Source: a candidate division TA06 bacterium
Lineage (GTDB): Bacteria; Hydrothermota; DG-26; E44-bin18
Direction: 5' to 3'
Assembly (NCBI GenBank): GCA_004376575.1
Contig: SOJN01000149.1
Location: 1 to 35,570, forward strand
Length of the DNA stretch: 35,570 bases
The notes beneath the pieces were generated by a model. That model was not told the origin of the DNA, did no database searches, and saw only the letters and a program-made list of their open reading frames with translations. Position numbers and translations under genes: made by a program. Below, piece by piece: positions 4,534 to 31,399 of the stretch. Within the stretch, counting starts at the first letter, position 1. The number at the start of each line of letters is the position of its first letter.

Positions 4534-4654
4534 AGACCTCTCCTTGTCGTGTTTTTGATGAAAGTGTGGAGTTATGAGCAGACTTATCTGCCCCACTCTT
4601 GTCGGCATGAAATTGAATTGCCTGACCCGCCCATATCCGTGCCATCAATACATC

Positions 4655-8748: not shown

Positions 8749-9987
8749 ATGAAGAGGGCGAAAACCCGACACGCATTAACAGCCATCTACGCTTTGGTGA
8801 CGCTTCTTGTTGGGGCAGTTTCGGTGCCAACCGCCTCGGCGGAGGACAAAGAGTACACCCGACCAAAACTTGTGTGGGAGAGGACGTTTGACCAATGGGT
8901 TCTTGCTGCAGGCGTGGATAAGGATTGTTACCGTCAGTCAGAACAAAACATTGGTGGGTGCCTGAAGTGGATGACCGCGGGGCGGAACGAACTGCGATGG
9001 TTTGTTGAGAACGGCAAACTAGCGCCGGAACCTCTCAAAGGGATGATATTCAGTACGGGCATATCAGCTAACGACAAATATCTTGTGCTTGTTCAGAAAA
9101 AAGGGAGCAACGGTCCATGTCACATGGTTTTCGACTGGAATGGGAACAAAATATGGGAAACAGATGAAAAATATCTGTTTCCGTACGTGCGGAACGACGG
9201 CTCAGCCGTGTTTCTTCGTAACGCGGTTGGCCTTAAGTCTCTTTACGGATTCAATTCGTACGATGCTCAGGGTTGGTTAACGAATACATACGAGTTTCCG
9301 GAAGAGCGTTCCTTCTATTGGGTGGGAGGTTTCGCCATAAGTGACAGTTTCTTCGCTCTGCTAACTGTCCCGCCCGGGGGAGGTTTGGAACTCTGCGTTT
9401 TCGACGAGGACGGTCGGGTCGCTTGGAAACAAAAGCGGATCGGGGGATCCGCTCTGAAAGCGCAAGGCACAGGAATGGCGAAGGACTGGGAGCGAGTTAC
9501 TGTCTCAAATCGGGGTGAAGTGCTTGTACTCGTGGGCTACAATGAGCCATATGGTACGTATGTCTTCATATATGACCATAGAGGGGCCCTCAGAGATACT
9601 CTATTGCTTGACCCAACTGGAGCTTCGAAACGCTTGAAAACGTATGGTCGTTTTGCTTTCGTAAGCGCTCAGCAGTCCGGCAAAAACCGGGGTCTGTTTC
9701 TGTGTTATGATTTTGAGAACATGGCGGTGAAGTCTCTTCTTCAGGAGGAAGTTGGTTTGAGTTTCGGGAACTTTGATGTCGACTTGGACGCCGGGCTCGT
9801 AGCCGTGGCCGTGCATTCCCGTGACAGAGGACATGTCGTGAAGATCTACGACCTGGATGGTGTCTACAAAACCGAAGTGGAGATTGAAGTGGGGTATCGC
9901 GACAGATTGTGGCTCAGAATGTTAGTGGGGGCGCTCCTCGTTGCAGAGAAAAACAAGCTGAGGCTGTACGAGATTGATGTGGAATAG
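8749..9987 (+). CDS. secreted propeller-like protein of unknown function
   Basis: A 412-residue protein with a typical signal peptide (basic start, hydrophobic core, cleavage near ASA-ED at residues 30-33). The mature part contains recurring blades of the form 'strand, strand, D-x-x-G turn, strand'. The turns DWNGNKIWE, DEDGRVAWK, DHRGALRDT and DLDGVYKTE each follow a hydrophobic strand, as in WD40-, PQQ- or NHL-like beta-propellers. I see no catalytic motif. GGGGAAG precedes the ATG, and a strong promoter lies at 8674-8702, so it is probably a single-gene unit. The gene is bracketed by a pair of direct repeats about 1.5 kb apart, which may mark an inserted cassette. It could be an extracellular or periplasmic ligand-binding protein; there is no specific family match. 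Confidence 0.75.
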   Translation: MKRAKTRHALTAIYALVTLLVGAVSVPTASAEDKEYTRPKLVWERTFDQWVLAAGVDKDCYRQSEQNIGGCLKWMTAGRNELRWFVENGKLAPEPLKGMIFSTGISANDKYLVLVQKKGSNGPCHMVFDWNGNKIWETDEKYLFPYVRNDGSAVFLRNAVGLKSLYGFNSYDAQGWLTNTYEFPEERSFYWVGGFAISDSFFALLTVPPGGGLELCVFDEDGRVAWKQKRIGGSALKAQGTGMAKDWERVTVSNRGEVLVLVGYNEPYGTYVFIYDHRGALRDTLLLDPTGASKRLKTYGRFAFVSAQQSGKNRGLFLCYDFENMAVKSLLQEEVGLSFGNFDVDLDAGLVAVAVHSRDRGHVVKIYDLDGVYKTEVEIEVGYRDRLWLRMLVGALLVAEKNKLRLYEIDVE

Positions 9988-10107: not shown

Positions 10108-13100
10108 TCAGAGTCCGAGGCCGTATAACACCACGGAGAGATAAAGGTGATGCCAGATATTCCCGCGCGTCCCCTTGAGGGCAAGGCCAAAGTTTCCGAA
10201 ACTCGTATCGAGATACACTCCAGCAGTCGGGCATACCCTGAGTCGGTCTGTGGAGAGAAGAGATTCCCCTGATGGAACGGCGTCTGCAATGTAGAGTGAA
10301 CCTTCCAGGTGAGCATTGACGCGTATCCCCAATAGCGACCTCTCGATAAAGGCCAGCCTTGCTGAGCCTCCGACCTTCCACATCAGTGGTTCGACGAATT
10401 CATCTTTAGCATGGCCAGGGAGGTCTTCGGAATCGTGCAGTGTTAGCTGATAGCTCCCGGTGGGGGTGATTCCGCCAAGGCTGTAGCGCTCGTACCAAGG
10501 AGTATCGTCAGAATACCAGCTGCCAAACGACCTCAGTGCAAGGGTTGTCGTTATTTTGTTTTGAATCCTCCATCTGAATGGTACTCCAACCATTCTCATT
10601 CGGGCTCGGGACCAAGAACTATTTTTCAGGTCAACTTTGGCATCAATGTCTGCTTTCCATCCAGACTCAGGAAACACGATGCGATTCAGATTGTCATACC
10701 GAAGCCACGAAACTCCAGTGACCTGGGTCTGCCATTCTTTCGGCTGGTGTATCATGTGCGTTGTAACTTGAGATACCTCAACGCCTGGAGTGAACGCAAA
10801 ACTCCTATAATAGACAGGAAAAGATAGCCGTCCGCAAATCTCGTAGAATCTCTTGTCGTAGTGTTGTGGTGTGTCCGGCAAACTTGGGAATGTCAACGAC
10901 ATCCAGTGAACATTCACATCAGGTATGGGCAGAAGGGAACGACAGCGTTGGCGACCTGCGCCGAGCCTCTGTCCGCGCGGGAATTCCTCAGCTACTTTCA
11001 GCGGAAAATTCTGCGCGTAGTTTGCATAGAGAGCCCAATCAGAAAGTTTCCTGATACTTCTGTTTCTCAGTTCGCAAAAGAAGTTGAACCCTTCATACAT
11101 TTCCAGAGATAGAGCCGGGAATTCCAGAGTATGAGTGGTTTTCTTCTTCACGGCAATAACCAGCGTATCTTCTTCCAGGCCCTCAACTGCAATAGTCTTG
11201 AGCTGAAATTCCCTGTGTACACGTGCAGTCTTGTCAAGAACGTGCTTCGGACTGAAAGGTTCAGAGAATTCACTCTCCAGGGCTTGCTCCGTTCTTGTAT
11301 CAGTTGTGTCATCGCACACTACCTTTACTCCACGAATAAGTGTCCCCTTGTGAACGTAGACGTAAAGTGTCTCAGGGCTGTTCTTACAGGAACGGAATCT
11401 AACGCTATCCACTCGAGGAGAGGCAAATCCTCGATCTACCAGATTGCTTTCTACCAGTTCTTTTACTTCGCCGAAGTTGAGGACTCTCTCCCTTTTTGCG
11501 CCTACCTGTTCAATCATAGAATTACTTGCTGACCCCGGGACACCTTTTACGATAACTTTCAGAGAATCACGATATTTCTCTTTTCTCTTGAGAAAGAAGG
11601 TGACAGTCCAATCCGAATCCACATTACCTATCTTGGTCTGAACATCCTCATAGGGGCCCAGGCCATAAATTCTTCTCATGGCATCGCAGATATCGATCTT
11701 CTCCACATAACTTCCTTCTTTGAGTCTGATCGCTTTGAGGAGTGTGTCTTGCTTCTCAGTCCCTTTCACAAGAGTAGTCTCATCCTCTACTATAGAGAAT
11801 AGGTCCATGGATGATAGACGACTGATCGGTCGAACCTGTTTTGAAGGTCGCAGGCTGTCTTCCAGAGCGGCCATTTCTCTTTTTATCCGAGGTATTTCCC
11901 TCCAGGCACCGTCATAGCCCGCGCGGATCATGTTCGTAAGGCTCTGTGGAGAAAAATCAAGCCAACCCTCAATCTCCATATCAATCTTGCCGTGGGCAGC
12001 GTCCCAACTGTTCCAGAGATGGTAGTCTCTGGCCAGGGAACGGGTCCGAGCCATCACACCGAATCCTAAAGGCCCGGCAAGTTCTGGCTCTTGAACCGCC
12101 TCTCTAACGCCTCTTCTCTTCGAAGGGTAAACACCAATGACATAGAGAATCTCGTCTTCGTCAGCGATGTTCATCAGTTTGTCTGGGACTCTGCTTGTGT
12201 CAAATGGTATGAATGCGTCTACTGGAAGGTCGTCAAGAATCGCACCGTCTGCATATGGTACGCCTCTAATAATTGTGGGCTCGAAGTAGATTGGAGATGA
12301 ACCGCTAGCACGCGTGGCAGTAGAAATCGTACCCTCCACCATCAGCTCAGATTTTCCCGTATTCAGATTCGTGAGGATGGCACCAAATGGCACAGACAAG
12401 CTGTCAAATCTGAAACCAGCCCGGTAGTCGGCCTCCAGGGATCGCTCAGCGATCTCATCAGTGAGTTTCTGCCCCACTGTAATGCCAAATTCTTGCACAT
12501 AACTGAAAGGAGGCCACCAGTCTCCGGTAGCGTTTAGATCTATTCCGGGCTCTCGGGATTTCTCTCTCAAGCGCACCCACATAGGGAGAGATTGCCTCGA
12601 TGGTTCATCTCCGAGGATATTCTCCCAATCGATATCACGTTTCATGAACGATTCGAGGTCCTCGATGGAGTGGCCACAGGCATACAGTCCCCCCACAACT
12701 GCTCCCATACTCGTGCCGGCAATACCATGGATGGGGATGTTATTCTCCTCGAGGGCTCTTAGAACACCGACATGAGCCGCACCTCGTATGCCGCCGCCGG
12801 CCAATGCTAGGCCCACCTTTACCCTCCTCGGCAATTCATCTACTGGCCTCCACGTTCTGTCAGTAGCGGTGGACTCCTCAGCCCAGGATGAATCCCGATA
12901 TAGATCGGACAAAACCCTTCGCTCCCACAGATATGAATTGGAATCTGATGTTGAAGGATACTTGTCAAACTTCAACCTGAGATGGATTGGATAACTCTCA
13001 TGCTCCAGCGGGATGCTGTTATGCGCGGCGATTGTCAATGTAGTCAAGCAGAGAAGTAGTGCTAAGCCGAGTGTTCGAACCACATTGACAGATCTGCGCC

Positions 13101-13158
13101 CGGGACGCTTTTGCCAGGAAAGCATACGGTAGAGAAAAGCTCTTTCGTTTGTGTTCAT
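10108..13158 (-). CDS. patatin-like phospholipase fused to POTRA and Omp85 outer-membrane barrel (copy 2)
   Basis: A 1016-residue paralogue of the protein at 1501-4533. After an N-terminal hydrophobic stretch (residues about 26-45, a signal peptide with a long basic n-region) comes the shared segment with SYPIHLRLKFDK and YLWERRVL. The patatin domain has oxyanion loop GGGIRG, nucleophile Ser150 in GTSMG and catalytic Asp304 in DGA. POTRA-like modules (about 450-700) lead into the C-terminal Omp85 barrel, with GGITPTGSY in place of the usual RG(Y/F) lid-loop motif, and an end in YGLGL. The ATG at 13158 is used; a second ATG at 13125 in frame would give a shorter n-region. Predicted to be an outer-membrane phospholipase of the PlpD (type Vd) kind, longer than PlpD. 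It has its own promoter (13213-13242). Confidence 0.9.
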   Translation of the reverse strand: MNTNERAFLYRMLSWQKRPGRRSVNVVRTLGLALLLCLTTLTIAAHNSIPLEHESYPIHLRLKFDKYPSTSDSNSYLWERRVLSDLYRDSSWAEESTATDRTWRPVDELPRRVKVGLALAGGGIRGAAHVGVLRALEENNIPIHGIAGTSMGAVVGGLYACGHSIEDLESFMKRDIDWENILGDEPSRQSLPMWVRLREKSREPGIDLNATGDWWPPFSYVQEFGITVGQKLTDEIAERSLEADYRAGFRFDSLSVPFGAILTNLNTGKSELMVEGTISTATRASGSSPIYFEPTIIRGVPYADGAILDDLPVDAFIPFDTSRVPDKLMNIADEDEILYVIGVYPSKRRGVREAVQEPELAGPLGFGVMARTRSLARDYHLWNSWDAAHGKIDMEIEGWLDFSPQSLTNMIRAGYDGAWREIPRIKREMAALEDSLRPSKQVRPISRLSSMDLFSIVEDETTLVKGTEKQDTLLKAIRLKEGSYVEKIDICDAMRRIYGLGPYEDVQTKIGNVDSDWTVTFFLKRKEKYRDSLKVIVKGVPGSASNSMIEQVGAKRERVLNFGEVKELVESNLVDRGFASPRVDSVRFRSCKNSPETLYVYVHKGTLIRGVKVVCDDTTDTRTEQALESEFSEPFSPKHVLDKTARVHREFQLKTIAVEGLEEDTLVIAVKKKTTHTLEFPALSLEMYEGFNFFCELRNRSIRKLSDWALYANYAQNFPLKVAEEFPRGQRLGAGRQRCRSLLPIPDVNVHWMSLTFPSLPDTPQHYDKRFYEICGRLSFPVYYRSFAFTPGVEVSQVTTHMIHQPKEWQTQVTGVSWLRYDNLNRIVFPESGWKADIDAKVDLKNSSWSRARMRMVGVPFRWRIQNKITTTLALRSFGSWYSDDTPWYERYSLGGITPTGSYQLTLHDSEDLPGHAKDEFVEPLMWKVGGSARLAFIERSLLGIRVNAHLEGSLYIADAVPSGESLLSTDRLRVCPTAGVYLDTSFGNFGLALKGTRGNIWHHLYLSVVLYGLGL

Positions 13159-14785: not shown

Positions 14786-17700
14786 TTACGCTTTGCTTTT
14801 CAGGGAGAGTTCGTGTAATTGTTTTATGCGGATGGCAAGCGCTTTGAAAATGTCGCGGGCGATTTCCATGTAATCATCTAACAGATCGTAGAAGACCTCT
14901 TTATCCAGCCTTAGAAGATGTGCATCCTCAGTTACAATTGCAGTGGCGGGACGCGGCTCACCGATGAACAGCTCAGCACCACCTACTGCCTCCTTTTCCG
15001 TCAGCTCCAAATTCGCCTCTTTGTACCGTACCTTGCCACTCACTATCAAATACATTGAATCCACGTAATCACCCTTCGAATAGAGTACCTCCCCTTTCTT
15101 GTAGTTCTTCTCCGTCATGACAGATCCCACAAGCAACAGCTTCTCAGTCGCCACCTCGGCTAAAATATCAACCCCCCTCAAGTAGATCACCTTCTCTATG
15201 CCAGTCATTCCTTTCTCCTTCTTTTTGGCCGCAATGTCTCCCCTACTAATCAGACCCAAAGCGTAGGATGCGGTTTGTCGTATTAGGTTATCCGAGGAAT
15301 CCAGTGCATCTTCTAGTTCCTTGGTGAAGGATGTCAGACGAAGTTCTCCAACAGTATGTATCGCACAGGCTTTGCGCCATCGCCCGCCTTCTGTCATCAA
15401 CGAATGCAATGTTTCGTCTCCTGTCAGGTTCTTAAGTCCGAAAAGCTCTATACCTTTACGAATCTTGCTTTCAACAGAAGTATCTTCAACAATGGGCAAG
15501 ATATACTTCTTGTGACGACCGTGCAATATACTATCCAACAGTTCAAGAGAATTGGCTCTCTTAACCTTGTCCAGGCTCTTGAGACCATGATATATATTCA
15601 AAAGGTCTTTTGCAGGATAGAGTAGCGCTGTTAGTCTTGATATTCGTTCGTAGCATTTCTCCAACTGTTCCTCGAGAGTTACCCACAATAAGCCTGACTC
15701 TTTTTTCTCTCCTAACGAACTCAGGACGATGAACGTATCAAAATACTCCCTGGCTTCGTTTGTAATTGCCTCTGATATTCCTTCCTCATCATAGTCATAG
15801 TCAGGGCTCTTGTCATGTAGCTTGTCCAACGCCTTTATTATCTGAAATCTCAGGCTAAGATCCTTCTCTCTCAGATTCTTGACAAGATTGTCCACTGCCT
15901 CTTGAGTACCTATCGAAAGCATCACCTTGGGTATCTCTGTTCTTATCCCAATGGGTTCTTCCTCATCGCACACAATATCCCGCAGCGTTCCCAGCACCCT
16001 ATCTCCATAATTGGCCAATGCCTCACGAGCAACATTTCTCATCTTCGGGGAAGCCAGTTTCCTAATCAGTAACAACACGTGCTTTCTCTTTTGCAGTCTT
16101 CCCATACTTCTTATTGCCTGTATGGTCACATCCAGGCATTTATCTTCTATGAAATCTGGCAGAAACTCAATGAGTTTCGAGTTTGAGTCCAGATATCCCA
16201 ATCCCTCCACTAGCTCCTCTATCGCTTTGTCTGCGAGCTCGGTTCTGTGGGATAATATTTCTTGTACACATGCTTTTGTCAGTAATTTTCTCTCCTCTTC
16301 TTTTCCATGTTTGGCAAGGTAGGCTACTGCTACGGCCCGCTTCACACAATCCTCCCGGGTCAGCAGAGAGGCCAATCGTTGGTATTGATCGGTCTCGCCG
16401 AGGTGTGCCAAATACCTCAATGCTTTCACCTGAACCTTCGCAGAATCGTCATCGAGTAGCTCCTCCACCTTTGGCCGAAGCTCAACATATTCAGCTCTGT
16501 GTAGCATATCCAGGACTCGTGCTCTTACTTCTTCCGACGGATGGGATAACAGCTTTTCTAAACTCGGTAAGATCTGGCTCAGGTCAGTATCTTGAAGGAG
16601 AGACAGTGCATACGATATCTGCCGCACGTTCCCGGTTTCAAGTGTCTCCAGGACAACTGCAGTCGATGTTGCATCGTTAAGGTTGAGTGTTGTCTCATCA
16701 ATCCTTAAATGCCCTTTGTAGATTGCTTTCCTGAGTGAGTTAACATATTCTCTTTTTATCAAGACCGCGAGAAATATCAGCGCAAAGGCAAACAACATTA
16801 GTATGGCACTTATGGCTCTCAGATTCAGAGAGAGTACAGAGGTGAAGAGGAGTAAAAGCCCTCCACTTATGCCTCTCGTGAATCGATCAACAAACATGTC
16901 TATGAATCCCTTCGTCTTGTTTTTCACCCGAGAAGGGACCGGAAGATACAGGAGCTCAAGTCCGGATCTATTTATTGAATATCTGAAACCACCTTCGCTG
17001 ATCTTTATGAATATGGCTGACGCAAGAATGGGGGCAAAGATCATGGCCCCTGCGCCGACAACGAGACTCACGGGGAGGAACAAAATAGCAGGACCAATAC
17101 CCACTTTTCTCAGAATGGTCGTCGTGAGGAAAAACTGAAGTGTAAAAGCGACAATGTTCAAAGATAGAAAGAACCTTCCGAAAAATGCTGTCAGCGCGTC
17201 CTTGGATTGAAAAGAGCCCTGCACGATTTTGTTAAACTGAAAATCGACAAAATTCGAGCAAATCAATATCAATCCTACTATTCCTACCAGGAGAAGTAGA
17301 TGCCTTGATTTTGCTATCAAGGCGAATATGCCTTCCTCTCCTTCGGTAGTCTCATCTGCGGCTGTGTCTTGCTGAGTCCTTAGAGGCTTTTCTCTAACCA
17401 GGCGCCACACAATCGTGTACACTCCCCATGACATTGCAAGAATAGCTATACAGAAGTAAAGCATATTGTCGGTTCCAAATGTTTTCACCATGAGAGAAGT
17501 TAGTGTTCCTCCAAAGGCTGCTCCTACCACAGCACCGGTTCCTATGAAACCAAACAGACGTTTCCCCTCTCTTGGATTGAAAATATTGATAGCTAGTAAC
17601 CAGAATTGGGAAGTCACCAGGATAGAAAACATGCTTACCCATATATAGAAGACATACGCCATCCAAGACCAGTCGAAGGTAAAAAGCCACCTGAATATGA

Positions 17701-18001
17701 CGAGATTCGAAAGCAACGCAGCAAAGGTCCAGGAGATTAGAACATTAAGGGAAACTCTTCTAAGAAACCTTGAATAAAGGTATGCTATTCCTCCTACGAT
17801 AACAGCAACCAATATCCAGACATAAGGCAGGGAGTCCGCGTCGAACTTTGTCAAGAAGAGCGAATTCCTTACGGGTTTTATGATATAGTATGAGGAGAGG
17901 AGAAAAAAGATGTAAAGGAACATGAGGATGGTTTTTGCATACTCACCCTTCCTTATCTCGAACATTGAACCGAATATTCTTTTTGAAATTGACACCTTCA
18001 C
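14786..18001 (-). CDS. ATP/ADP-translocase-like carrier fused to HEAT repeats and a cyclic-nucleotide-binding domain
   Basis: A 1071-residue inner-membrane protein. Residues about 15-430 form some 12 membrane spans with the signature YIIKPVRNSLFLTKFDA (39-55), as in the nucleotide transporter (NTT/Npt, TLC) family. Residues about 450-900 are helical repeats of the HEAT/armadillo type, with recurring SxxEEVRARVLDML-like units. Residues about 940-1060 form a cNMP-binding domain; its phosphate-binding cassette GGAELFIGEPRPATA keeps the glutamate (1010) and arginine (1017). Canonical NTT carriers exchange ATP for ADP in energy parasites, but fused forms occur in free-living bacteria and their substrate is unknown. 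A GTG start is supported by GGAGG 10 bases upstream. It is the last gene of the operon, 26 bases after the kinase-like lipoprotein gene. Nucleotide binding and transport are inferred, not shown. Confidence 0.85.
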   Translation of the reverse strand: MKVSISKRIFGSMFEIRKGEYAKTILMFLYIFFLLSSYYIIKPVRNSLFLTKFDADSLPYVWILVAVIVGGIAYLYSRFLRRVSLNVLISWTFAALLSNLVIFRWLFTFDWSWMAYVFYIWVSMFSILVTSQFWLLAINIFNPREGKRLFGFIGTGAVVGAAFGGTLTSLMVKTFGTDNMLYFCIAILAMSWGVYTIVWRLVREKPLRTQQDTAADETTEGEEGIFALIAKSRHLLLLVGIVGLILICSNFVDFQFNKIVQGSFQSKDALTAFFGRFFLSLNIVAFTLQFFLTTTILRKVGIGPAILFLPVSLVVGAGAMIFAPILASAIFIKISEGGFRYSINRSGLELLYLPVPSRVKNKTKGFIDMFVDRFTRGISGGLLLLFTSVLSLNLRAISAILMLFAFALIFLAVLIKREYVNSLRKAIYKGHLRIDETTLNLNDATSTAVVLETLETGNVRQISYALSLLQDTDLSQILPSLEKLLSHPSEEVRARVLDMLHRAEYVELRPKVEELLDDDSAKVQVKALRYLAHLGETDQYQRLASLLTREDCVKRAVAVAYLAKHGKEEERKLLTKACVQEILSHRTELADKAIEELVEGLGYLDSNSKLIEFLPDFIEDKCLDVTIQAIRSMGRLQKRKHVLLLIRKLASPKMRNVAREALANYGDRVLGTLRDIVCDEEEPIGIRTEIPKVMLSIGTQEAVDNLVKNLREKDLSLRFQIIKALDKLHDKSPDYDYDEEGISEAITNEAREYFDTFIVLSSLGEKKESGLLWVTLEEQLEKCYERISRLTALLYPAKDLLNIYHGLKSLDKVKRANSLELLDSILHGRHKKYILPIVEDTSVESKIRKGIELFGLKNLTGDETLHSLMTEGGRWRKACAIHTVGELRLTSFTKELEDALDSSDNLIRQTASYALGLISRGDIAAKKKEKGMTGIEKVIYLRGVDILAEVATEKLLLVGSVMTEKNYKKGEVLYSKGDYVDSMYLIVSGKVRYKEANLELTEKEAVGGAELFIGEPRPATAIVTEDAHLLRLDKEVFYDLLDDYMEIARDIFKALAIRIKQLHELSLKSKA

Positions 18002-18027: not shown

Positions 18028-19716
18028 TTACCCCTCGTGCTCAACACCAACAATTGAAAAATCTTGCGATTTCTGTTCATAATATAGATGAACTCTAACA
18101 TATTTATTCCGACTCAATTCTTTCTCTCTTTTGCCGTGAATTTCAAGGAAAAAATATCTGTCTTCTCTTTTTGTATCTTTCTCTTTTACCTTTGCTTCAA
18201 CTAAGTCCTTTATTACACCATCCAAAGCAATTGGAGGTTTCGTTAGCAGGTATTCTGTCATCAATTCAGGTTTTCCCTGGAAATTGTGGTGGTAAAGCCT
18301 GCAACGATATACACATTTCTCAGCACTGCAAAAACCTGCTTTCACAGCCAAATCCTCAAAGTGCAGAAAGCTTTTGTCGGTCCCATCCTTTGCAATTGCA
18401 AAATTGTCAAGGGGATTGACCTTGCCATACCAATATCTCACTAGCTTATCTCTTCTTTCCTGCAAGATCCTAATTAGATATTTCTCAGAATCCAAGTTAG
18501 TAAGATGTCCACTTTTTACAACTGCTTCAATGTGTTCATCCGAGAATGACGCAACTACTCTGGCTCCCCAGTATCTATCCAGATTTGTCATATTCTGAAA
18601 AGCTGGATTAGGATAATTTGCCTTCCATCTCGCGGGCTCGAATACTTTTGATTCAAAATAGCCTATTGACGGTAAATCAATAAATTCCAAATCCTCCCAG
18701 GATCTTTTATAGATTCCAAACGTAAACAATGACTTCAAGGTTTCGACAAAATCAATGGTGTATTCGTGTCCACCCTCGAAATGCGGTGGCCTACTCGCAT
18801 TTCCCAAGGTCGAACCGAAATCTATCAAATAGTGTTTGAGGTACTTCCTTCCATTATCTTCCACATACATATCCAGTGTATTTTTCCCCACTATATCAAC
18901 GTGGTTGAGCCATGCGCATATGACGCCGAGACCCCGGAGTTCGCGCCTGTCCTCATGGGGAATCAAGTCCTCGGGATCATCTCTTCTTCTTCCCCTATAT
19001 GAAAATGGACCTTTAGGTTTTCCTGAGAGATACTTGCTTGCCATTACCCTGATTTTAGCGTCATCTCTCCAAGGCACTCTGCTCAAAATCTCATCTAAAT
19101 CGGCCTGCTTCATGAGTCGCTTTACACCTCTTTTATCGACAAACTTCGCATTTTTGCCCACCCTTAACCTATCGGGACAAAACACTGCTATGTAGTTCTC
19201 AGGAGTATTATACCCAGCCGCGTAAAAGAATTTTGTGCAAATCACTTCAGAGGAGCTGGCAAGCTCAGGATGCCCTAGGGGATCGAACTTGATTACATAA
19301 ATATCTCCTCTCGAGTCTTTAACGTGGAACCCGACGGTTACTCCCCGACTCTTTCCTTTAATCACCTCCCACATGCCAGAAGTATCTGGACCATCTCCTT
19401 TGTTTGGACCCTTCACAATCCCTTCAATGCTCAAAGGTGTAGCGGCATTCCTATTTGTAAACCAATCTGAGTCAAGTACTTGCCCAAATGGATCTACATT
19501 CTTACTTTCCTCTTTCCCACTCCTGCAAAAAATCCGTGGTATCTGGGAGAAAATAGAATTATCCAGGAAATCATACTGTTCACTGATTTCACGCTCTGAG
19601 GGTTCAGAAATAGACTCAGCGCCGGAGGGTGAGAGTGTTTTTATGCGATATTCGGATACACTGCTGCATCCTATCATGAAAGCCAACGCGACTATTGCAA
19701 TCGCACTCTTATTCAT
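18028..19716 (-). CDS. lipoprotein with protein-kinase-like catalytic motifs
   Basis: A 562-residue protein with a lipoprotein signal (FMIGC, Cys17). Residues about 115-310 hold the pieces of a kinase-like fold in the right order: a G-rich hairpin (GKSRGVTVGF), VIKFDP with Lys143, SSEVICTKFF with Glu157, NHVDIVGKN with Asp274 and Asn279 (D-x4-N, as in HRDxxxxN), and LIDFGS with Asp299 as the DFG aspartate. The C-terminal 230 residues are not recognised and contain a cysteine group (C-x4-C-x3-C, near 464-473). The ATG overlaps the stop of the upstream Omp85 gene (ATGA), which implies translational coupling. The lipid anchor would place it in the periplasm or at the outer membrane, where ATP is scarce, so it may be a kinase, an AMPylase or a pseudo-enzyme. 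I can give no family name. Confidence 0.8.
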   Translation of the reverse strand: MNKSAIAIVALAFMIGCSSVSEYRIKTLSPSGAESISEPSEREISEQYDFLDNSIFSQIPRIFCRSGKEESKNVDPFGQVLDSDWFTNRNAATPLSIEGIVKGPNKGDGPDTSGMWEVIKGKSRGVTVGFHVKDSRGDIYVIKFDPLGHPELASSSEVICTKFFYAAGYNTPENYIAVFCPDRLRVGKNAKFVDKRGVKRLMKQADLDEILSRVPWRDDAKIRVMASKYLSGKPKGPFSYRGRRRDDPEDLIPHEDRRELRGLGVICAWLNHVDIVGKNTLDMYVEDNGRKYLKHYLIDFGSTLGNASRPPHFEGGHEYTIDFVETLKSLFTFGIYKRSWEDLEFIDLPSIGYFESKVFEPARWKANYPNPAFQNMTNLDRYWGARVVASFSDEHIEAVVKSGHLTNLDSEKYLIRILQERRDKLVRYWYGKVNPLDNFAIAKDGTDKSFLHFEDLAVKAGFCSAEKCVYRCRLYHHNFQGKPELMTEYLLTKPPIALDGVIKDLVEAKVKEKDTKREDRYFFLEIHGKREKELSRNKYVRVHLYYEQKSQDFSIVGVEHEG

Positions 19717-21014
19717 CTGATGAACGGCGGTGAAAGATTCAGCATCGCTCTGATGCCTTCAGGACTTCTCCCCACCTCTAATCTGAGTACAACTGTATTG
19801 GGAGATTTTACACGTATGCCACCACCATATGTCTTGCGCAAAGAGCCGGAATGAATGTCTGAGAAGTCCTCAAACACCTGTCCAATGTCCGCAAAGATGA
19901 CAGCATCCACAATTCCCCTCCATCTCCGCCAAATAGGATACGAATATTCCAGATTCAGACACGCTGCTTGCGTGCCCCAGAACCTATCTTCAGGGTATCC
20001 TCTTAAGCTGGTACCGCCCCCCAGTCTTACCATCGAGAAGAAAGGAATCTCATTGTTCTCTAGGGGATAGGTTCTCTCATACAGCAACCTGACCGAAACC
20101 CTGCGACCTTCCCTAATCATAGTGAAGTAGCGAGTTATCTCAAAAGTATAATCAAGGAAACGAAATGGCTGGCCGCTTACATCTCGTGAGAAGCCGAACG
20201 ATACATACTCAGTACCACCAGAGAATGGATCTCCTGGTTTGTCTCTGGAATCATGCATAACCGAGGCTGCAACAGAGGCCAACTCAGCTCCGTCAAGCCC
20301 GGGCAATTCGCTGTGCACCTCTTCTATCAACGGTGATGCATTTCTTGCTACATAGACACGCCTGTTTTGATAATTCGCACACCCAGTGATTTTGACACTC
20401 TTCCCCAGAAGGGCACCCAACTGGAAGTCTAGAAAAGTCTCTTCACTCCCCCAAAATGTGGTGTCACTTTCGTGCGTCTTAGGACCCAATCCGTAGAAAA
20501 CCTGTCTGTGTTTTATAGCGTACCCAGCTTCTGTGTCAAAAAACAGCCCGTTCTCTGAGGATGTACTCAATGACACTCTATGATCCTGATACAAACTCGT
20601 CGATAGTCCCGCCGATATGGAAGCATCGAGTGGGCTTTTGAAGAGGTTGTCGCGGCTGACGGTAATTCCTCCTCCGATTCCGGAACCTGGTCCAAGCCCT
20701 CCTAGATTGGCTGCAATATCATGCTCACCAAACCACGAAAACAGGTATGCACCCCTGATTATGAGGTTGCGCTTCTCGATGGCTAAAAGGCCCTTCTCCA
20801 ATCCGTAGTCAAGCAAATAGAACGGCGAAAAAAGTACCTTACAGGGAAATGAAATGATTTTGCAGAGCGAAAGGGTGGGTGATTTCTCTTCTGTGACGAC
20901 ATAATAGCTCTGACTGCTGTCCTCATAAGCAGCCTGACTTTGTTGCCCAGATTGCTCCATACCAGAAAGCAAAGATGCAAGACAAAGCCCAGTTATGACT
21001 AATGTCGAGTACAT
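19713..21014 (-). CDS. POTRA-less Omp85/BamA-TamA-family outer-membrane barrel
   Basis: A 433-residue protein: a short signal-like N-terminus (residues 1-20), a linker rich in S and Q, an amphipathic stretch (ISFPCKVLFSPFYLLDYGLE, 54-73), then a barrel to the end. The barrel has the Omp85 lid-loop motif in GGGTSLRGYPEDRF, the following strand-turn block NLEYSYPIWRRWRG and DIGQVF. POTRA domains, expected in BamA or TamA, are absent. It heads a three-gene operon: its TGA overlaps the ATG of the kinase-like lipoprotein, and the carrier-HEAT gene follows. A promoter with a perfect -35 box lies at 21229-21257, leaving a leader of about 210 bases. The role may be transport or display across the outer membrane. 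Confidence 0.85.
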   Translation of the reverse strand: MYSTLVITGLCLASLLSGMEQSGQQSQAAYEDSSQSYYVVTEEKSPTLSLCKIISFPCKVLFSPFYLLDYGLEKGLLAIEKRNLIIRGAYLFSWFGEHDIAANLGGLGPGSGIGGGITVSRDNLFKSPLDASISAGLSTSLYQDHRVSLSTSSENGLFFDTEAGYAIKHRQVFYGLGPKTHESDTTFWGSEETFLDFQLGALLGKSVKITGCANYQNRRVYVARNASPLIEEVHSELPGLDGAELASVAASVMHDSRDKPGDPFSGGTEYVSFGFSRDVSGQPFRFLDYTFEITRYFTMIREGRRVSVRLLYERTYPLENNEIPFFSMVRLGGGTSLRGYPEDRFWGTQAACLNLEYSYPIWRRWRGIVDAVIFADIGQVFEDFSDIHSGSLRKTYGGGIRVKSPNTVVLRLEVGRSPEGIRAMLNLSPPFIR

Positions 21015-21768: not shown

Positions 21769-22581
21769 CTAGCGCTTTCTCTTGAAGGAGGAATAGAGAA
21801 AAGAGAGGAAGAAAAGGAGACCGGCAAAAAGGACGATTGTGGCTCCGGAAGAGAGGTTCAGATAATAGGAAAGAAACAAGCCCGCGACTGTGGATACTAT
21901 TCCCAGAAGAACCGAATAGACCACCAGGGCTCTATAGTTGTCGGTCAGCTGTCGTGCAGTGGCAGCCGGCAGCACAAGAAGAGCGGACACGAGTATTATC
22001 CCCACGACTTTTATTGCAAGAACAATGGTAATCGCCATGGAGAAAAGGAATAGATAATAGATTGGGCCGACCGGGATGCCACTTACCGAGGCAACTTCTT
22101 CGTCGAAAGAAAGAAAGAGGAGTTCTTTGAACACAGCGGCAAGTATGATGAGTAAGATAGGTGCAGAGACCAAGACCAAAACCAGGTCGGCCTTCGTTAT
22201 AGCCAGTATGTTGCCAAACAGATAGCCGAATAGATCTACGTTGTACTTCTTTGAGATCCCAATGAAGAATATCCCGAGGGCCATTGTTAGTGCAAAGAAG
22301 ATGCCTATGGCAGTGTCCTCATGCAGTTTGCCGCGTCTATTTATGAATCCTATGAGGAGTGCGACCCCTGCTGAAAAGATCACTGCGGAGAGTGTGGGGT
22401 TAATTCCAAGAAAGTAGCCCAGCGAGACCCCGCCGAATGCGGAGTGGGAAATCCCCACTCCAATAAAAGAAAGCCTCTTCAGTACCACGAATGTGGAGAA
22501 AACACCGCACAATACGGCGATGAGTATTCCCGCAGCGAATGCCCTCTGCATAAAGCCCATGCTGAGAGCGTCAATCACCAT
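21769..22581 (-). CDS. znuB: metal (zinc/manganese) ABC transporter permease, ZnuB/TroC-like
   Basis: A 270-residue, highly hydrophobic protein with about eight membrane spans, typical in length for the ABC-3 permease family. Family marks include GVFSTFVVLKRLSFIGVGIS (residues 25-44), SHSAFGGVSLGYFLG with the metal-site histidine region, and VSALLVLPAATARQLT. AGGAGA precedes the ATG, which lies inside the end of the ATPase gene (11-base overlap), so the genes are translationally coupled. It forms the membrane channel of the importer encoded with the two upstream genes. Zinc is the likeliest substrate; manganese or iron cannot be excluded. Confidence 0.9.
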   Translation of the reverse strand: MVIDALSMGFMQRAFAAGILIAVLCGVFSTFVVLKRLSFIGVGISHSAFGGVSLGYFLGINPTLSAVIFSAGVALLIGFINRRGKLHEDTAIGIFFALTMALGIFFIGISKKYNVDLFGYLFGNILAITKADLVLVLVSAPILLIILAAVFKELLFLSFDEEVASVSGIPVGPIYYLFLFSMAITIVLAIKVVGIILVSALLVLPAATARQLTDNYRALVVYSVLLGIVSTVAGLFLSYYLNLSSGATIVLFAGLLFFLSFLYSSFKRKR

Positions 22582-23350
22582 GTTCTCCTACTACGCGATG
22601 CGGAATCCTACCGTGCACCAGGAGCTCAACCTCGCAGCCGTATGCCTCGCGTAAAGATTCGTGGGTAAGAACCTCTTCAGGTTTGCCGTGCAGGTGTATC
22701 CTTTGATTTACGCAGGCGATTTCCTCTGTGTAGTAGGGAATCACTCCAATGTCGTGCGAAACAAGAACGAGGGTCAGACTCAGGTCCCTTTTTAGTGCAC
22801 CAAGTAACTGATAGAATTCATTTTGCGCTCTGGTGTCAACCCCTGTCAACGGCTCATCCAAGAGGAGAATCTTGGGCTCTGAGGAGAGCGCTCTGGCAAT
22901 GAAGACTCGTTGCTGTTGTCCCCCGGACAGATGGCCTATGGGCCGAGCCTTCAGGTCAGACATTCCAACCTGCTTCAGGACCCTCATCACGATTTCTCTG
23001 TCTGTGGCAGATGCCTTTCGGAACGGGCCTATCATTGAGTATCGGCCCATCATTACAACATCGTAGACGGAAACCGGGAAGTCAAGGTCTGCAATCGGAT
23101 TTTGAGGGACATATCCGATTGCGCCCTTTGGCTTGACGTGAGCTGGGGGGTGACCGAGTACGGTCACTTTTCCTTTGACAGGTTTGATGAGCCCAAGAAT
23201 ACACTTGAGAAGTGTGGTCTTGCCCCCGCCATTTGGGCCTATTAAACCCAGGAACGTTCCTTTGGGAATCATGAGGTTTACGCCTTTGAGGACGACAGTA
23301 CCATTCAATGTCACCGAGAGATTTCGTATGTCAATAGCAACATCAATCAT
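22571..23350 (-). CDS. znuC: metal ABC transporter ATP-binding protein, ZnuC-like
   Basis: A 259-residue ATPase of the ABC class. Walker A is GPNGGGKT (38-45), the Q-loop is GYVPQNP (79-85), the ABC signature LSGGQQQR (141-148), Walker B ILLLDEP (161-167) and the switch histidine lies in VSHDIG. The reading frame begins at an ATG that overlaps the stop of the substrate-binding gene by four bases (ATGA). It energises metal import through the permease encoded next. The C-terminus ends in a His-containing tail (VHGRIPHRVVGEHGD) that could bind metal, as an inference only. Confidence 0.92.
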   Translation of the reverse strand: MIDVAIDIRNLSVTLNGTVVLKGVNLMIPKGTFLGLIGPNGGGKTTLLKCILGLIKPVKGKVTVLGHPPAHVKPKGAIGYVPQNPIADLDFPVSVYDVVMMGRYSMIGPFRKASATDREIVMRVLKQVGMSDLKARPIGHLSGGQQQRVFIARALSSEPKILLLDEPLTGVDTRAQNEFYQLLGALKRDLSLTLVLVSHDIGVIPYYTEEIACVNQRIHLHGKPEEVLTHESLREAYGCEVELLVHGRIPHRVVGEHGD

Positions 23351-24258
23351 TCCATCGCCTGTCTCATCACATTCAGGTTGTATCTCATCAAATTAAGATA
23401 GGAGTCTCGGCCGGGGATGCCTTCTCCCCCCAGAGGGTCCAGCATGAGGACTCTGACGTTTGCCTCCTCAGCAATCGCCATGGCAGCCTTTGCGCTCAAT
23501 TGGGGTTCAGAGAATACAGCCTTTATTTCGAATTTGCCGATATCTTCAACGATACGTTTCAACTGTTTTGGTGTTGGCTGTCGGCCAGGGGACTCCTCTA
23601 TGATGCCTACCTCGTTGAGGCCATAAGTCCTCGCGAAGTATGACCAGGCAGGATGAAAAGCAACATACTCTTTTATACCGAAATTGCTGACTGCCTTCTT
23701 TACCTCTGCATGGAGAGAATCGATCAGGGACATATACTCGTTTGCGTTTTTCATATAGAAGTGAGCGTGGCCAGAATCAACCTCTGCGAGAGCAACCGCA
23801 ATCTGATGGGTTATCTTCTTGGCAATGGTGGGATCCAACCAGATATGCGGGTTGCCTTCTTGTCTGCCGACAGAAGAGAGTCTGGTCTCCCGGTGTGCAT
23901 GAGCAACATCTGGAATCATTTGAACTCCCTGGGACGTCCTTACTACCAGCAATGATTCTGAGGCAGCAGCTTTTATTAGCTTTTCCGCCCAGAACTCGAA
24001 GCCAGCACCCACAGTGACGAAGACCCGGACATTGACGAACTTCTTGAACTCCCTGGGAGAAGGTTCAAAGGTGTGAGGACTGGCGCCAGGAGGAATCAGA
24101 ACATACACGTCTGCCATCTCCTTGCCCACATTTCTGGTTATGTCAGCGAGAGGGAAGATGCTGGCTGCAACCTGTATCCGTGCTTCGGGTGCAGGTGTGC
24201 TGCAGCCGGTGAGCAAGGCTAGAAGCGCAAGCACAATTGCTGCGAATGATATCTTCAT
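23347..24258 (-). CDS. znuA: zinc/manganese-binding lipoprotein of ABC importer, ZnuA-like
   Basis: A 303-residue cluster A-I substrate-binding protein with a lipoprotein signal (LLTGC, Cys19). The metal ligands expected for the family are visible: His62 in PHTFEPSP, His138 in NPHIWLDP, His202 in FHPAW and Asp274 in LDPLGG. The His-rich loop between the first two ligands is short (HAHRE, 120-124), as in manganese- or low-histidine zinc-binding members. The ATG at 24258 is chosen because it begins directly with the signal peptide; a TTG at 24297 would add 13 residues. First gene of a three-gene operon with overlapping ends. No Zur-type operator was recognised. Confidence 0.9.
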   Translation of the reverse strand: MKISFAAIVLALLALLTGCSTPAPEARIQVAASIFPLADITRNVGKEMADVYVLIPPGASPHTFEPSPREFKKFVNVRVFVTVGAGFEFWAEKLIKAAASESLLVVRTSQGVQMIPDVAHAHRETRLSSVGRQEGNPHIWLDPTIAKKITHQIAVALAEVDSGHAHFYMKNANEYMSLIDSLHAEVKKAVSNFGIKEYVAFHPAWSYFARTYGLNEVGIIEESPGRQPTPKQLKRIVEDIGKFEIKAVFSEPQLSAKAAMAIAEEANVRVLMLDPLGGEGIPGRDSYLNLMRYNLNVMRQAME

Positions 24259-24304
24259 ATCCAGGGAAAGCGTAGCAGGATACGCACCCCGCGTCAATGC
24301 ACTT

Positions 24305-24422: not shown

Positions 24423-27400
24423 TCAATAGCGGACCTTGAATCCCAAGCCCAGGTTATATCTTCCCTCCTCATCACGGCTACCCACAACGGAAGACCCCTT
24501 CCACAGGTAATACTCTACCTTGTATTCATCTTTTGCTCCTGCAAACAGATCGTGAGAATAAGATACATATACACCTTTGCGAACGTATTTCCCGACAGTG
24601 AGCCGCGCAGACCTTTCTGGCCCGAAGAGCTCGCTTTTGAACCTTATTTCATGTAGACCGGTGGTCCTTTCCAGTTCCCTCATTACAATGTTCTGAAGGA
24701 CAGCTAGGCTGAGATCTCCGCCGGTTTTCGCGATCAGTTCTTGGCCGGACACGTTGCCGTTTGACCCCCTTCCGGTCGTGAAGCCGAGGCTCAGAAGGAG
24801 AAGAAGGTCTGTCTCTGAGAGTTCGGGATCGGGAGAAGAGAGATGGAACTCCGGTTCAAGCATCGTCCCTGCGACAGTGAGAGTGATAATATCTGGCAAG
24901 ACCTTATTGGAGTCTGGATCGAGAGGCTTGAAGGGATCTATTACTATGGCCTCCGCTTCAACGTCGACGGAGGGATTCAGTTCCGGGGCATTTGAAAATC
25001 TGAACTCCCCTGTCTTCACGTCGAAAGGCTGGGTGAACCCCAGATAGTAGAACCTCCCACCAACAATATCCATCACTCCAGAAAGAACCATTGTCCCGGG
25101 TCTCCATCTCACTCTCACATCGGCTCCCATTTCCAGATCCGCGTCTCTGTTGCTCAGGAATATGTTTCTGTCCCCATGGATCGTCAGGTCATATGATGCA
25201 TTGTGTTTGGATGCGGCCAGAGGTATGGCGCGTGTCCTGAACGGGACTGTAAGAGTACTCTGGATGACTTCGACATCACATTCAGTATGTATCATGTCTT
25301 TTCCGCGCCTGACGACCGCATCCGCGTTAACGACTGCAGAGACATCCTTGAAACCTTCAACGAGCGCATTTCTGGCCTTCACATTGAATTCATAGTCCTT
25401 GTAGGAAAGTGCCTCAAAAACGAGATAACCATTGACATCCACTGAACCGCCCTTAGTCTTGCCTGAGACAGACACAACATCGAGCCTTTCACCTTCGAGT
25501 TTCAACTTTCCCACAACATCAGTCGCCGAAGTCAAGGTGGGTCTGAAGAGGACTCTTGGCGAGGAAACATTCATCGTACCCGTGATGTTCGGGTTGTGGG
25601 GCGTTCCCCGTACGTTGATTTTGGCGTCTACTCTACCCTCTGCAACCTCAAACAGATTTCTCAAGGGGAAGAATATCCATACTCCGACGTCGTTGAAATC
25701 AGCGTCCAGTGACATGTCTGACTCTAGGATTCTGGGCCCTTCGCTTCTAATGGCAAGGTTGACCGGAATGTATCCAGACAGAGTTGACTTTCTTTCATTT
25801 CTGTAGATGATGAACTTCTCCGTTTTGAGAAGGTTCTTTGCATAGGAAAGGGAAATTATTGAGCTGTCCACTGATGCCTGCGCGATCGACATGCTTCGCA
25901 GATCGAGCAGGAGGGCCATCTGAGGATCCTCCAAAGTTCCGTTCAACTTGAAGTCGACTGTGAGAAATCCTTCTGCTTGAGGCTTGGATGTCAGCATGGC
26001 AGTCAGGCTGCTGAGCCGTACCGAATCGGCCCTCAGGTTGAATTCAGTATGTCCGTTGTTCAGATTGAGCCCGCCAAAAGACATCTCTGAACCGAGAAAG
26101 TCAAGCGTGCAAGGTCTGATGAAAAGGCCGCTGTCTGAGTAGACGACGCTCAACACACTTGAATTTTTGATTATCTGATCGTTGAGAACCAAAAAAAAGT
26201 TGTCCGCTTCGGCTTCTGCACTACCATCTTTCAGGAAGGCGTTTCCTCTCACGTTGAGAGAGCCCTCATCAGCAGTAGCCCACACCTCGTATTCAAGAGT
26301 CTTCCCTTCCGCAACAAGTTCTATTTTGCCCTGTTCCACTCGGGTGTCATTAAGTGCAACTCCAGCGAAGCTGATGGTCGCGGATCCTTTTGGTTCTCTT
26401 ACCATATCCTGTATGTTCAAGTTTGCGCCGAGATGATCAAACCGCAAACCCTTGAACTCGCCGTCAGCTATCCACGCGGTACCCGAAAGTGATGGGTTGC
26501 TCACCGTTCCTTCCATCCAGAGATAACCGCTTAGACTTCCCTTCAGGTCGTTGATGCCCAGGACCGGGCCGAATGTGGCCACGTCCATGTTTTCCATCTT
26601 GCTGTCGAGTTCAAAACCGGTTCTGGAAAGCCTGCCTGACGAAATGAAACGTCCTCTTTCAAAGGTGACATCAAGTGTGTCCAGCTTGATCGTGCCGGAG
26701 GAGTAGGAAAAATCAGAGATTGCACGGCTGAGTGTTATGCCATCTAAGGAGGTCTGGTTCAGGCGGGCCTTTCCTGTAGCTGTCACATTCTCAAGAGAGT
26801 TGCCGCTGCCGGTTAGATTCAAATTGCCGGTCAAGACAACTCGCCTGTCCAGCAGGAGTCCTGGGTCGAAGCTATCCAGTTGGCAGTCGACAGAAAATAC
26901 GGGGATTGTTGGAGTCATATCCACCAGGATGGAGCCTGTGGCGAACCCTTTTTCTATCTGCCATCTGTTGATTTTCAATCTGCCCTGAGGTCCGTCAAAG
27001 CTGGCAAGTAGGTCAAGCCGTCCAAGGTCTATGCCTCTTATTTGGGCACCAGCAACAAGCATTCTGGCGTTCACGGTTCTGACATCAAGGCTCTCACTGT
27101 AAGTTCCGCTGATCGTCATGTCGCCTTTCAGTCCCAGTTCGGGCTGCAAGATGTCGGCAAATTCCTCGACATTTACTTTCGAGTCGAGGAAAACGATATG
27201 TGTGCCAGTTGAATCCACCTTTCCCGCTACAGCGATTCTAGATCTTCTGGTTCTGAGCTGGAACTCCTTCAATTCGAGGCCCATTTCCCCTAGTGCGGCT
27301 TCACCAAATAGCCGGAACACTCTGAGGCGGCCGTTGACGGTAAACTTGCCATTGTACAGCCTGATTGTGGTTCCGTTTCCCTTCGTGAGAAGCGAGCAGA

Positions 27401-27929
27401 AAAGGTTCGCATCAGACACAGCGATATTTCTGTCCCCTTGAATGGACATGGCCCCATCTAGAACAATCATGTGGGCGATAGAAAAGGGGAATGCGCTCAG
27501 CGGTTTCTTTTGCGGTGTTGGCTTCGCTTCGCTGGCAGAAGGTTCCTTCCTGTTCAGGAGACCGGACAAGTTCCACTTACCGTTTTCCTTTTTCAAAGAC
27601 AGACCCGGGCCATGTATCATAATAGAGGTGAGGCGGCGCCTTACGACCAGTGCAATAGGAGAATAACTGACGGCAAGCGAATCAGCCCATATTATTGGCT
27701 TTTCTTCTCCCGCAGGCGCTATTTCTATTCCCGACAGCTTGATCTCGCCAAGAAGGGTACCCGCTACCCCTCTCACATCAACATTGATTCCTGAGGTCTC
27801 AATCCGTCTGACTAGATGGTTAACCACACGATTGAGCGCCCACTCGGTGCCCAGGATAAGGTGGGCTAGCAGGAATAGCATAGCAAGGGCTATGGTTACT
27901 ACATAGGTTATCTGACGTTTGCGGCTCAT
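24423..27929 (-). CDS. tamB: TamB-like inner-membrane/periplasmic protein (translocation and assembly module)
   Basis: An 1168-residue AsmA/TamB-family protein. One membrane anchor (residues about 9-28) precedes a very long run of beta-strand repeats (e.g. GSLSGYLWMEGTVSNPSLSG and similar 'G-x-L-D-A-x-I-x-V-x-G' units), forming the lipid-conducting groove known from TamB. The last 300 residues carry the TamB C-terminal domain (MDIVGGRFYYLGFTQPFDV, then PELSETDLLLLLSLG and GKYVRKGVYVSYSHDL). It starts 27 bases after the BamA/TamA-like gene, so the pair is an operon like tamA-tamB. Expected role: phospholipid passage between inner and outer membrane and/or outer-membrane protein insertion. Length is close to the 1259 residues of the E. 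coli protein. Confidence 0.9.
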   Translation of the reverse strand: MSRKRQITYVVTIALAMLFLLAHLILGTEWALNRVVNHLVRRIETSGINVDVRGVAGTLLGEIKLSGIEIAPAGEEKPIIWADSLAVSYSPIALVVRRRLTSIMIHGPGLSLKKENGKWNLSGLLNRKEPSASEAKPTPQKKPLSAFPFSIAHMIVLDGAMSIQGDRNIAVSDANLFCSLLTKGNGTTIRLYNGKFTVNGRLRVFRLFGEAALGEMGLELKEFQLRTRRSRIAVAGKVDSTGTHIVFLDSKVNVEEFADILQPELGLKGDMTISGTYSESLDVRTVNARMLVAGAQIRGIDLGRLDLLASFDGPQGRLKINRWQIEKGFATGSILVDMTPTIPVFSVDCQLDSFDPGLLLDRRVVLTGNLNLTGSGNSLENVTATGKARLNQTSLDGITLSRAISDFSYSSGTIKLDTLDVTFERGRFISSGRLSRTGFELDSKMENMDVATFGPVLGINDLKGSLSGYLWMEGTVSNPSLSGTAWIADGEFKGLRFDHLGANLNIQDMVREPKGSATISFAGVALNDTRVEQGKIELVAEGKTLEYEVWATADEGSLNVRGNAFLKDGSAEAEADNFFLVLNDQIIKNSSVLSVVYSDSGLFIRPCTLDFLGSEMSFGGLNLNNGHTEFNLRADSVRLSSLTAMLTSKPQAEGFLTVDFKLNGTLEDPQMALLLDLRSMSIAQASVDSSIISLSYAKNLLKTEKFIIYRNERKSTLSGYIPVNLAIRSEGPRILESDMSLDADFNDVGVWIFFPLRNLFEVAEGRVDAKINVRGTPHNPNITGTMNVSSPRVLFRPTLTSATDVVGKLKLEGERLDVVSVSGKTKGGSVDVNGYLVFEALSYKDYEFNVKARNALVEGFKDVSAVVNADAVVRRGKDMIHTECDVEVIQSTLTVPFRTRAIPLAASKHNASYDLTIHGDRNIFLSNRDADLEMGADVRVRWRPGTMVLSGVMDIVGGRFYYLGFTQPFDVKTGEFRFSNAPELNPSVDVEAEAIVIDPFKPLDPDSNKVLPDIITLTVAGTMLEPEFHLSSPDPELSETDLLLLLSLGFTTGRGSNGNVSGQELIAKTGGDLSLAVLQNIVMRELERTTGLHEIRFKSELFGPERSARLTVGKYVRKGVYVSYSHDLFAGAKDEYKVEYYLWKGSSVVGSRDEEGRYNLGLGFKVRY

Positions 27930-27956
27930 CGTCTTGAAGGGGTCTTCATTAAGAAC

Positions 27957-29765: not shown

Positions 29766-29823
29766 ATGTTTAGCCCTATTGATTATAGTGTTGCATTCAT
29801 ACAATGTCAACATCAGAGCACCT

Positions 29824-30277: not shown

Positions 30278-31399
30278 ATGTCGAAAGAAACATTCTACCT
30301 GTATGTGCAGGGGATAGATTTCGTGGTCACACCATTCAGATTCATCGGCAACTATCAGCCGGACGCCCGGGTTTACTTCTTCCCTATTTTCTATGGTAGC
30401 GGATGGATAACCTCCTGGACCTGGACGTATGACGTTGGTATCCCATACACCGCAAATGAGATGCACCTGAAACAGGTTGTGGCCAAGGGATGGGTGAAGA
30501 CGGAAATAACAGGCGGCCAGTACTGGCCTTGCCTGGTCATCAGAGACAATTATACTTTCAGTGACAACTTCGGGACCAACGACCTAAGGTGGCTCTATGA
30601 ATGGGTCGTTGCTGGAAGATTTGCCGGAGGAAACGGTATAGCGGCTGCCTTGAGTCCAAACGGTGCGAGCAAGGACTTTATTGTTGTGGACAAGATGCTG
30701 CGCATGAAATCACTGAATGTTCCGGGCTGGGACCTCACCTGTCCCGTGTTCGACAGCACGACCGTGTGGACTGATACGTCCTTTGCGGGGCCGTACCCGG
30801 TCTCAAGTATCATAACCGATCCAGGTGGAATAGGTGGCGACTCGTTATTCTACATGGTGGACTCTGGAAGCTTCACAGGAGTTGGTCACGACAGCCTCTG
30901 GGGAGACAAGTACTACTTCACCATCCCGGAGGTCGCGAGCTCGTGCACCATCTCCTACTATCTGTGGGCAGAGGATTCGTTCAGTGTGGTCAATAGTATC
31001 GATATATGGACCACAGATCCGGAAGCCGCGCCCGAGAATAATCTGATCACGTTTGTTGTTACATTGACAGCAGTTGAAGAGAAATGGACCAGGCGCGTCG
31101 AGCAGGAAGCTCTTCGGGTTTTTCCGAATCCATTCTCGTCATCGGTGCGTATCGATGCCGGCGTCGCCTGGGACGGTGGTCCTGCACGGATAAATATATT
31201 TGATCAGGCGGGTCGCCTCGTACGCACATTCAACCTGGCTGAGTCCCCGGAGAATAGCCGGGGAACAACAGTTCACCTTTCCTGGACCGGTACCGATGAA
31301 CTTAATCGATCAGTGCCATCCGGGATGTATTTCGTCACGCTTGAGCAGCCATCCAGCCCGATTACCACTCACGCCACCAAGCTGGTCAAGATTCGATAG
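30278..31399 (+). pseudogene. C-terminal part of the same secreted protein, with FlgD/Por-type secretion tail
   Basis: A 373-residue frame, the continuation of 29945-30271 past one TAG. As an independent gene it would lack a signal peptide and has no close ribosome-binding site, which supports a broken single gene. It reads like a secreted, aromatic-rich beta domain (with W-x-Y and G-W-I-T-S-W type stretches). The C-terminal 95 residues are the secretion/FlgD-like tail: VFPNPFSSSV, then INIFDQAGRLVRTF, then WTGTDELNRSVPSGMYFVTL, ending in KLVKIR. Such tails direct cargo to type IX-like or related outer-membrane systems. The PorV-like gene follows 15 bases later. The function of the middle part is unknown. 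Confidence 0.75.

Follow-up and report, generated by a model that had tools for sequence, protein, structure and literature searches.

Positions 18028–19716 (minus strand) of the window, by which we mean the whole 35,570-nt stretch of the candidate division TA06 contig SOJN01000149.1 that was analysed here, hold an open reading frame of 562 amino acids encoding a lipoprotein with a predicted kinase fold. A lipoprotein signal peptide running up to the lipobox Cys17 (FMIG-C; 19666–19716, minus strand, as are all parts of this gene) precedes a kinase domain at about residues 107–432 (18421–19398) and a C-terminal beta domain at about residues 433–562 (18031–18420). Lys, Glu, D-x4-N and DFG are the catalytic residues of the protein-kinase fold and its distant relatives, and the first-pass annotation had read such a set behind a lipobox cysteine: VIKFDP with Lys143, SSEV with Glu157, NHVDIVGKN with Asp274-x4-Asn279, and DFG at 299. 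All of these were found in the frame at the residues it gave, with the lipobox reading IGC. Catalytic Lys143 maps to 19288–19290, the helix-C residue Glu157 to 19246–19248, the catalytic-loop Asp274-x4-Asn279 to 18880–18897 and DFG (299–301) to 18814–18822.

The gene lies between two others on the same strand, a linkage that was absent from the first-pass annotation and was found here. The stop codon of the upstream gene (19713–21014), which encodes an Omp85-superfamily barrel without POTRA domains (Pfam Omp85, E = 4.8e-13), overlaps the start of the kinase gene (ATGA). Downstream, 26 nt past the kinase stop, starts a gene (14786–18001) for an NTT-type nucleotide translocase with HEAT repeats and a cNMP-binding domain (Pfam TLC, E = 2.5e-14; HEAT_2; cNMP_binding). 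Mis-binning of the contig was considered and rejected: the genome has no full-length AccA gene other than the one on this contig, which is 62–65% identical to the nearest genes of the same phylum. A phage or plasmid origin of the kinase was likewise rejected, as tblastn gave no match to it in the plasmid and phage collections.

Screening of the GTDB genome collection with a degenerate DNA pattern for HYLxDFG[ST]x[LF]G matched at least 119 stretches. Among 120 loci examined, the window locus counted in, at least 111 were true loci of this family, which has no Pfam family of its own, and 9 were not homologues. Among the matches listed, the carriers were assigned to Acidobacteriota, Zixibacteria, Omnitrophota, Latescibacterota, Gemmatimonadota, Calditrichota, Myxococcota, Poribacteria, Marinimicrobia and others; a few bins may carry the wrong phylum label. 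Edaphobacter aggregans DSM 19364 is a carrier that has been cultured. Conservation was assessed in an alignment of 73 full-length sequences, the homologues being 29–43% identical to the window kinase. Lys143, Asp274 and Asn279 were each retained in 72 of the 73 and DFG in all 73, so that the lack of conservation in homologues that would have refuted the first-pass reading was not observed. Position 157 was occupied by Glu in 45 sequences, Asp in 23, Ala in 4 and Thr in 1, and was thus acidic in 68. An extra motif, DDP-N-D-x3-H-x2-RR-x-LR, was nearly invariant in the family directly ahead of the catalytic loop. A group of cysteines C-terminal to the domain (C463, C468 and C472), for which metal binding or disulphide formation had been suggested, was not conserved across the 73 sequences; such a role was therefore rejected, and the group has no evident significance.

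In a quick tree, the window kinase fell loosely within a mixed group of Zixibacteria, Calditrichota and Gemmatimonadota. No second copy turned up when 147 genomes of its own phylum were searched at the protein level, and in the same genomes the family profile found no further copy other than a single marginal fragment containing stop codons. Open frames of 1000–1170 aa in some loci had been suspected of being kinase–Omp85 fusions; five turned out to be kinases with a C-terminal extension lacking a Pfam match, and a sixth merely contained an upstream open frame. Some Acidobacteriota kinases (L124–L128) have an additional C-terminal region of about 400–600 residues with no Pfam match.

An AlphaFold2 model of the kinase, computed with the family alignment as input (pLDDT 92, pTM 0.92), placed Lys143 in strand 139–144, Glu157 in helix 152–167, Asp274–Asn279 in a loop ahead of strand 280–287 and DFG after strand 290–297. 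Catalytic residues lying far apart in the predicted fold would have contradicted the first-pass reading; the fold predicted was instead that of a kinase. Comparison with the PDB by VIA-align gave Z scores of 9–14 against many kinases, in keeping with a bilobal kinase fold, the closest being CtkA (Z 14.4; 236 residues at 4.3 Å, over residues 107–440), Fam20 (13.8; range about 13–14), PI4KIIalpha (12.6, over residues 102–432), HipT (about 11) and HipA (9.7); the CtkA and PI4KIIalpha alignments delimit the kinase domain. Residues 433–549 matched fibronectin-type (FN3) cytokine-receptor domains at a borderline Z of 7.6. A search of viral structures retrieved scattered kinase-like matches only.

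The Pfam search gave no match for the window protein, and querying the PDB sequences with the family profile brought up no kinase; the fold evidence thus rests on structure and on HipA_2. The HipA_2 profile matched 14 of the 73 members weakly (best E = 6e-4) and was itself absent from 60 relatives. HipA_C reached a best E of 0.09 among the 73, one such weakly matching member scoring 12.5 bits against a cut-off of 30.5. Profile–profile comparison with the kinase clan, which had been proposed as a check, was positive: hhalign aligned the family to a profile of 19 genuine HipA_2 proteins with a probability of 94% (E = 1.2e-7) and set Lys143, Glu157, Asp274/Asn279 and Asp299 opposite the HipA_2 Lys, Glu, D-x4-N and Asp, and a control comparison of the kinase profile with the Omp85 alignment gave 0.7%. 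The earlier caveat that a Lys–Glu spacing of 14, shorter than in canonical kinases, might indicate a helix insertion or a different fold lost its force, as the spacing in HipA_2 members is also exactly 14 (YVLKFRGAGHGVKALIAEL). The Fam20C profile matched none of the 73 members, the PI3_PI4_kinase profile none of the members, and the CotH profile none of the 73 at E up to 1. Assignment as a Fic/AMP transferase was rejected: the single NCBIfam match of the window protein, to this family, fell far short of the cut-off (E = 0.003; 17 bits where 181 are required), no other of the 73 members showed it, and the fold is that of a kinase.

On the strength of the model, the window protein almost certainly has a kinase fold, and we consider it likely to be a catalytically active phosphotransferase, although catalysis is inferred. 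On the computed fold, and with catalysis inferred, we assign the proteins to a new exported kinase family that belongs to the HipA/PI4KII/Fam20-like region of the kinase superfamily. With the HipA-like kinases (HipA_2, PF20613; HipA_C, PF07804; CtkA, HipT and HipA) the family shares the fold, the Lys–Glu spacing of 14, D-x4-N and the metal-binding Asp. It differs from them in being exported or lipidated, in its additional N-terminal region and C-terminal beta domain, in having DFG-S-x-LG where they have ID[HF], and in the extra motif ahead of the catalytic loop. Whereas HipA is accompanied by a partner, no HipB or HipS gene lies by the family kinases, which are coupled instead to Omp85 and NTT genes. 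Fam20 kinases of the secretory pathway likewise place a kinase fold outside the cytosol, and they require ATP carried across a membrane; the present family is, however, bacterial, with only 8–9% identity to Fam20 in the structural alignment and no match to its profile. Type II phosphatidylinositol 4-kinase shares the fold but, again, not the profile.

Export-type N-termini were called by a simple heuristic in 66 of the 73 members (24 lipobox-like, 31 Sec-like and 11 hydrophobic only), and none was detected in the remaining 7. Judged from these N-terminal sequences, the kinase is very probably located outside the cytoplasm, apparently anchored in the envelope as a lipoprotein in the window and Sec-exported in other members. 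Fold, conservation and export signals together support the first-pass proposal of an exported kinase or other ATP-using transferase, with catalysis itself remaining an inference. The periplasm is generally held to be without ATP, and an exported kinase therefore needs explanation.

Among the matches listed, 89 loci offered 300 nt or more of upstream sequence, and in 87 of these an Omp85 gene directly preceded the kinase. The AlphaFold2 model of the window Omp85 protein (pLDDT 86) matched the barrels of TamA, BamA and Sam50 with Z scores of 26–27. Pfam found no POTRA domain in this protein, and the model contained only two helices (63–81 and 84–97) before the barrel. In this it resembles the noNterm group of the Omp85 superfamily, which also lacks POTRA domains (PMC4104836). 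Pairing of an enzyme with Omp85 is known from PlpD-type proteins, and PlpD is an Omp85-linked enzyme able to remain in the periplasm (PMC11116518); there the enzyme is a fused patatin, whereas here it is a separate kinase lipoprotein. The window contig itself carries two PlpD-like patatin–Omp85 fusion proteins (1501–4608 and 10108–13158, both minus strand) and thus several enzyme–Omp85 pairs. In one Latescibacterota locus (L130, 6414–12561), a tandem of two Omp85–kinase pairs is followed by two NTT genes.

The window NTT scored 53.4 bits against PF03219 (cut-off 21), with an additional match to MFS_1, and its NTT domain aligned along most of its length to the plant NTT1 structure 9j3j (E = 1.9e-7) and also to 9j3n (ADP,ATP carrier protein 1). 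Charged residues were conserved across the kinase-linked NTTs. Of 70 kinase copies, 39 had PF03219 no more than 7 kb away. Such linkage was seen in 34 of 50 genomes, against a chance expectation of about 0.4 genomes, with 25 downstream on the same strand. All 50 kinase-bearing genomes contained PF03219. Because the kinase lacked an adjacent NTT in 16 of them, in some cases on a short contig, adjacency is not obligatory. A sample of 149 genomes of Acidobacteriota, the phylum of Bryobacterales F-183, revealed PF03219 in 24 of 27 genomes with a full-length kinase versus 20 of 122 others (Fisher p ~1e-12); since those 20 lack the kinase, NTTs have other roles as well. In the phylum of the window, PF03219 occurred in 1 of 147 genomes, namely as the neighbor of the kinase, which is likewise the only kinase of this family found there. 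These co-occurrence counts were not corrected for phylogeny or shared ancestry. We regard a functional link between kinase and NTT as probable. That the NTT supplies ATP to the kinase is somewhat favored, ATP export being inferred without transport data.

Extended loci repeated the order Omp85–kinase–NTT–NTT/HEAT–cNBD, often with histidine kinases or response regulators nearby. A calcineurin-like phosphatase gene lay directly 3' of the kinase in Zixibacteria, Latescibacterota, Gemmatimonadota, Marinimicrobia, KSB1 and LCP-89; the full-length phosphatases examined had a lipoprotein-like start and kept the GD, GNH and GHxH motifs. No such phosphatase occurs in the window, and most loci lack one. 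A PAP2-type phosphatase family was present in four extended loci.

As the best explanation of the computed fold, residues, export signals and linkage, and the simplest one to make use of every part, we put forward with some confidence an envelope phosphorylation module, of which catalysis, substrate and ATP export are inferred. The inner-membrane NTT would swap cytoplasmic ATP for periplasmic ADP. The kinase, using Lys143, Glu157, Asp274, Asn279 and Asp299, would phosphorylate a protein, lipid or sugar of the envelope, and the ADP that it released would be taken back up by the exchanger. Kinases use ATP and release ADP, and a one-for-one ATP/ADP exchanger would fit for this reason. The POTRA-less Omp85 barrel may dock the kinase at the outer membrane, or pass the kinase or its product to the surface, and the calcineurin-like phosphatase lipoprotein, where present, may reverse the phosphorylation mark.

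An exported kinase-fold enzyme that performs some other ATP-dependent transfer (AMPylation, glutamylation, or phosphorylation of sugars or lipids), or a non-catalytic binding protein, is the alternative that survives best, although we consider it unlikely. Relatives of the kinase fold include SidJ, which is on the Foldseek list for the kinase model, and lipid kinases such as PI4KIIalpha, and a lipid substrate would suit the PAP2-type phosphatases of some loci. Glu157, moreover, is not strictly conserved, being Asp in a third of the members and Ala or Thr in five. Against this, the nearly invariant Lys, D-x4-N and DFG make up the standard phosphotransfer set, and a pseudoenzyme is disfavored because the loss of some catalytic residues would then be expected.

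Were the NTT-like neighbor not a nucleotide carrier here but an MFS-like membrane sensor or scaffold, with its HEAT and cNMP-binding parts, the kinase would draw ATP from leakage or use another donor. The modest TLC score of the window NTT and its MFS_1 match leave room for this, as does the uncharacterized state of NTT-HEAT-cNBD proteins (PMC5381601); we nevertheless doubt it, given the alignment to solved NTT1-type ADP,ATP carriers over most of the domain and the conserved charged residues. More improbable still is a scavenging role, in which a surface or periplasmic kinase would use extracellular ATP, for example from lysed neighbors, and the NTT would import nucleotides. The kinase is indeed exported, its partner is an outer-membrane barrel, and characterized parasite NTTs import ATP (PMC5381601); however, carriers came mostly from soil, sediment and water samples, judged by record titles, and not from host cells, scavenging would be an unusual task for a kinase, and the two-component genes beside the cluster suggest internal regulation. 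Coincidence of the catalytic motif set in an unrelated fold, which the missing Pfam match of the window protein might have allowed, is scarcely conceivable and already refuted by the high-confidence kinase fold, the residue conservation and the in-register HipA_2 match.

The 2017 survey of NTTs by Major, Embley and Williams described NTT-HEAT-cNBD fusions, stated that their function was unknown, gave no kinase partner for them and reported no function in free-living bacteria; it also noted that NTT members can move other nucleotides or NAD (PMC5381601). The gene downstream of the window kinase encodes one of these translocases, here linked to an exported kinase. For the NTT-HEAT-cNBD proteins of free-living bacteria, which the survey left without a role, this linkage suggests a function and provides a partner for the first time. 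Conversely, the linked NTT offers a testable explanation of the ATP source for an exported kinase. In the open-licence PMC literature, to which our search was limited, no publication described a bacterial kinase that is exported and associated with Omp85 or NTT. That these loci represent an envelope phosphorylation system, widespread among bacteria and equipped with a dedicated ATP/ADP exchanger, an exported kinase, a phosphatase eraser in some phyla and an Omp85 link to the outer membrane, is advanced only tentatively and may well prove wrong. If true, bacteria would possess an equivalent of the secretory-pathway kinases, a role would be assigned to the NTT-HEAT-cNBD proteins of free-living species, and Acidobacteriota as well as several uncultivated phyla would commonly use regulated extracytoplasmic phosphorylation with a dedicated nucleotide supply. 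The kinase is a new family of a known kind; the module, provided that the supply model holds, would be a new kind of system.

The surroundings of the module in the window include, near it, a 412-aa open reading frame without a Pfam match (8749–9987, plus strand). An adjoining metal-uptake module (21769–24297, minus strand) encodes a ZnuA-like metal-binding protein, an ABC ATPase and an ABC-3 permease, beyond which lie TamB and BamA-like genes (24423–29813) and a frame (30278–31399, plus strand) with a weak match, just under the cut-off, to a type IX secretion-like C-terminal sorting domain (Por_Secre_tail). Outside the window, Bryobacterales F-183 encodes a shorter, exported-looking relative of the kinase (L123, 3458–4435, plus strand). 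Short Acidobacteriota relatives of this type (about 320–450 aa) align with the family profile in the block around Lys and in that of D-x4-N/Asp, and are perhaps a second, distant group of exported kinase-like proteins.
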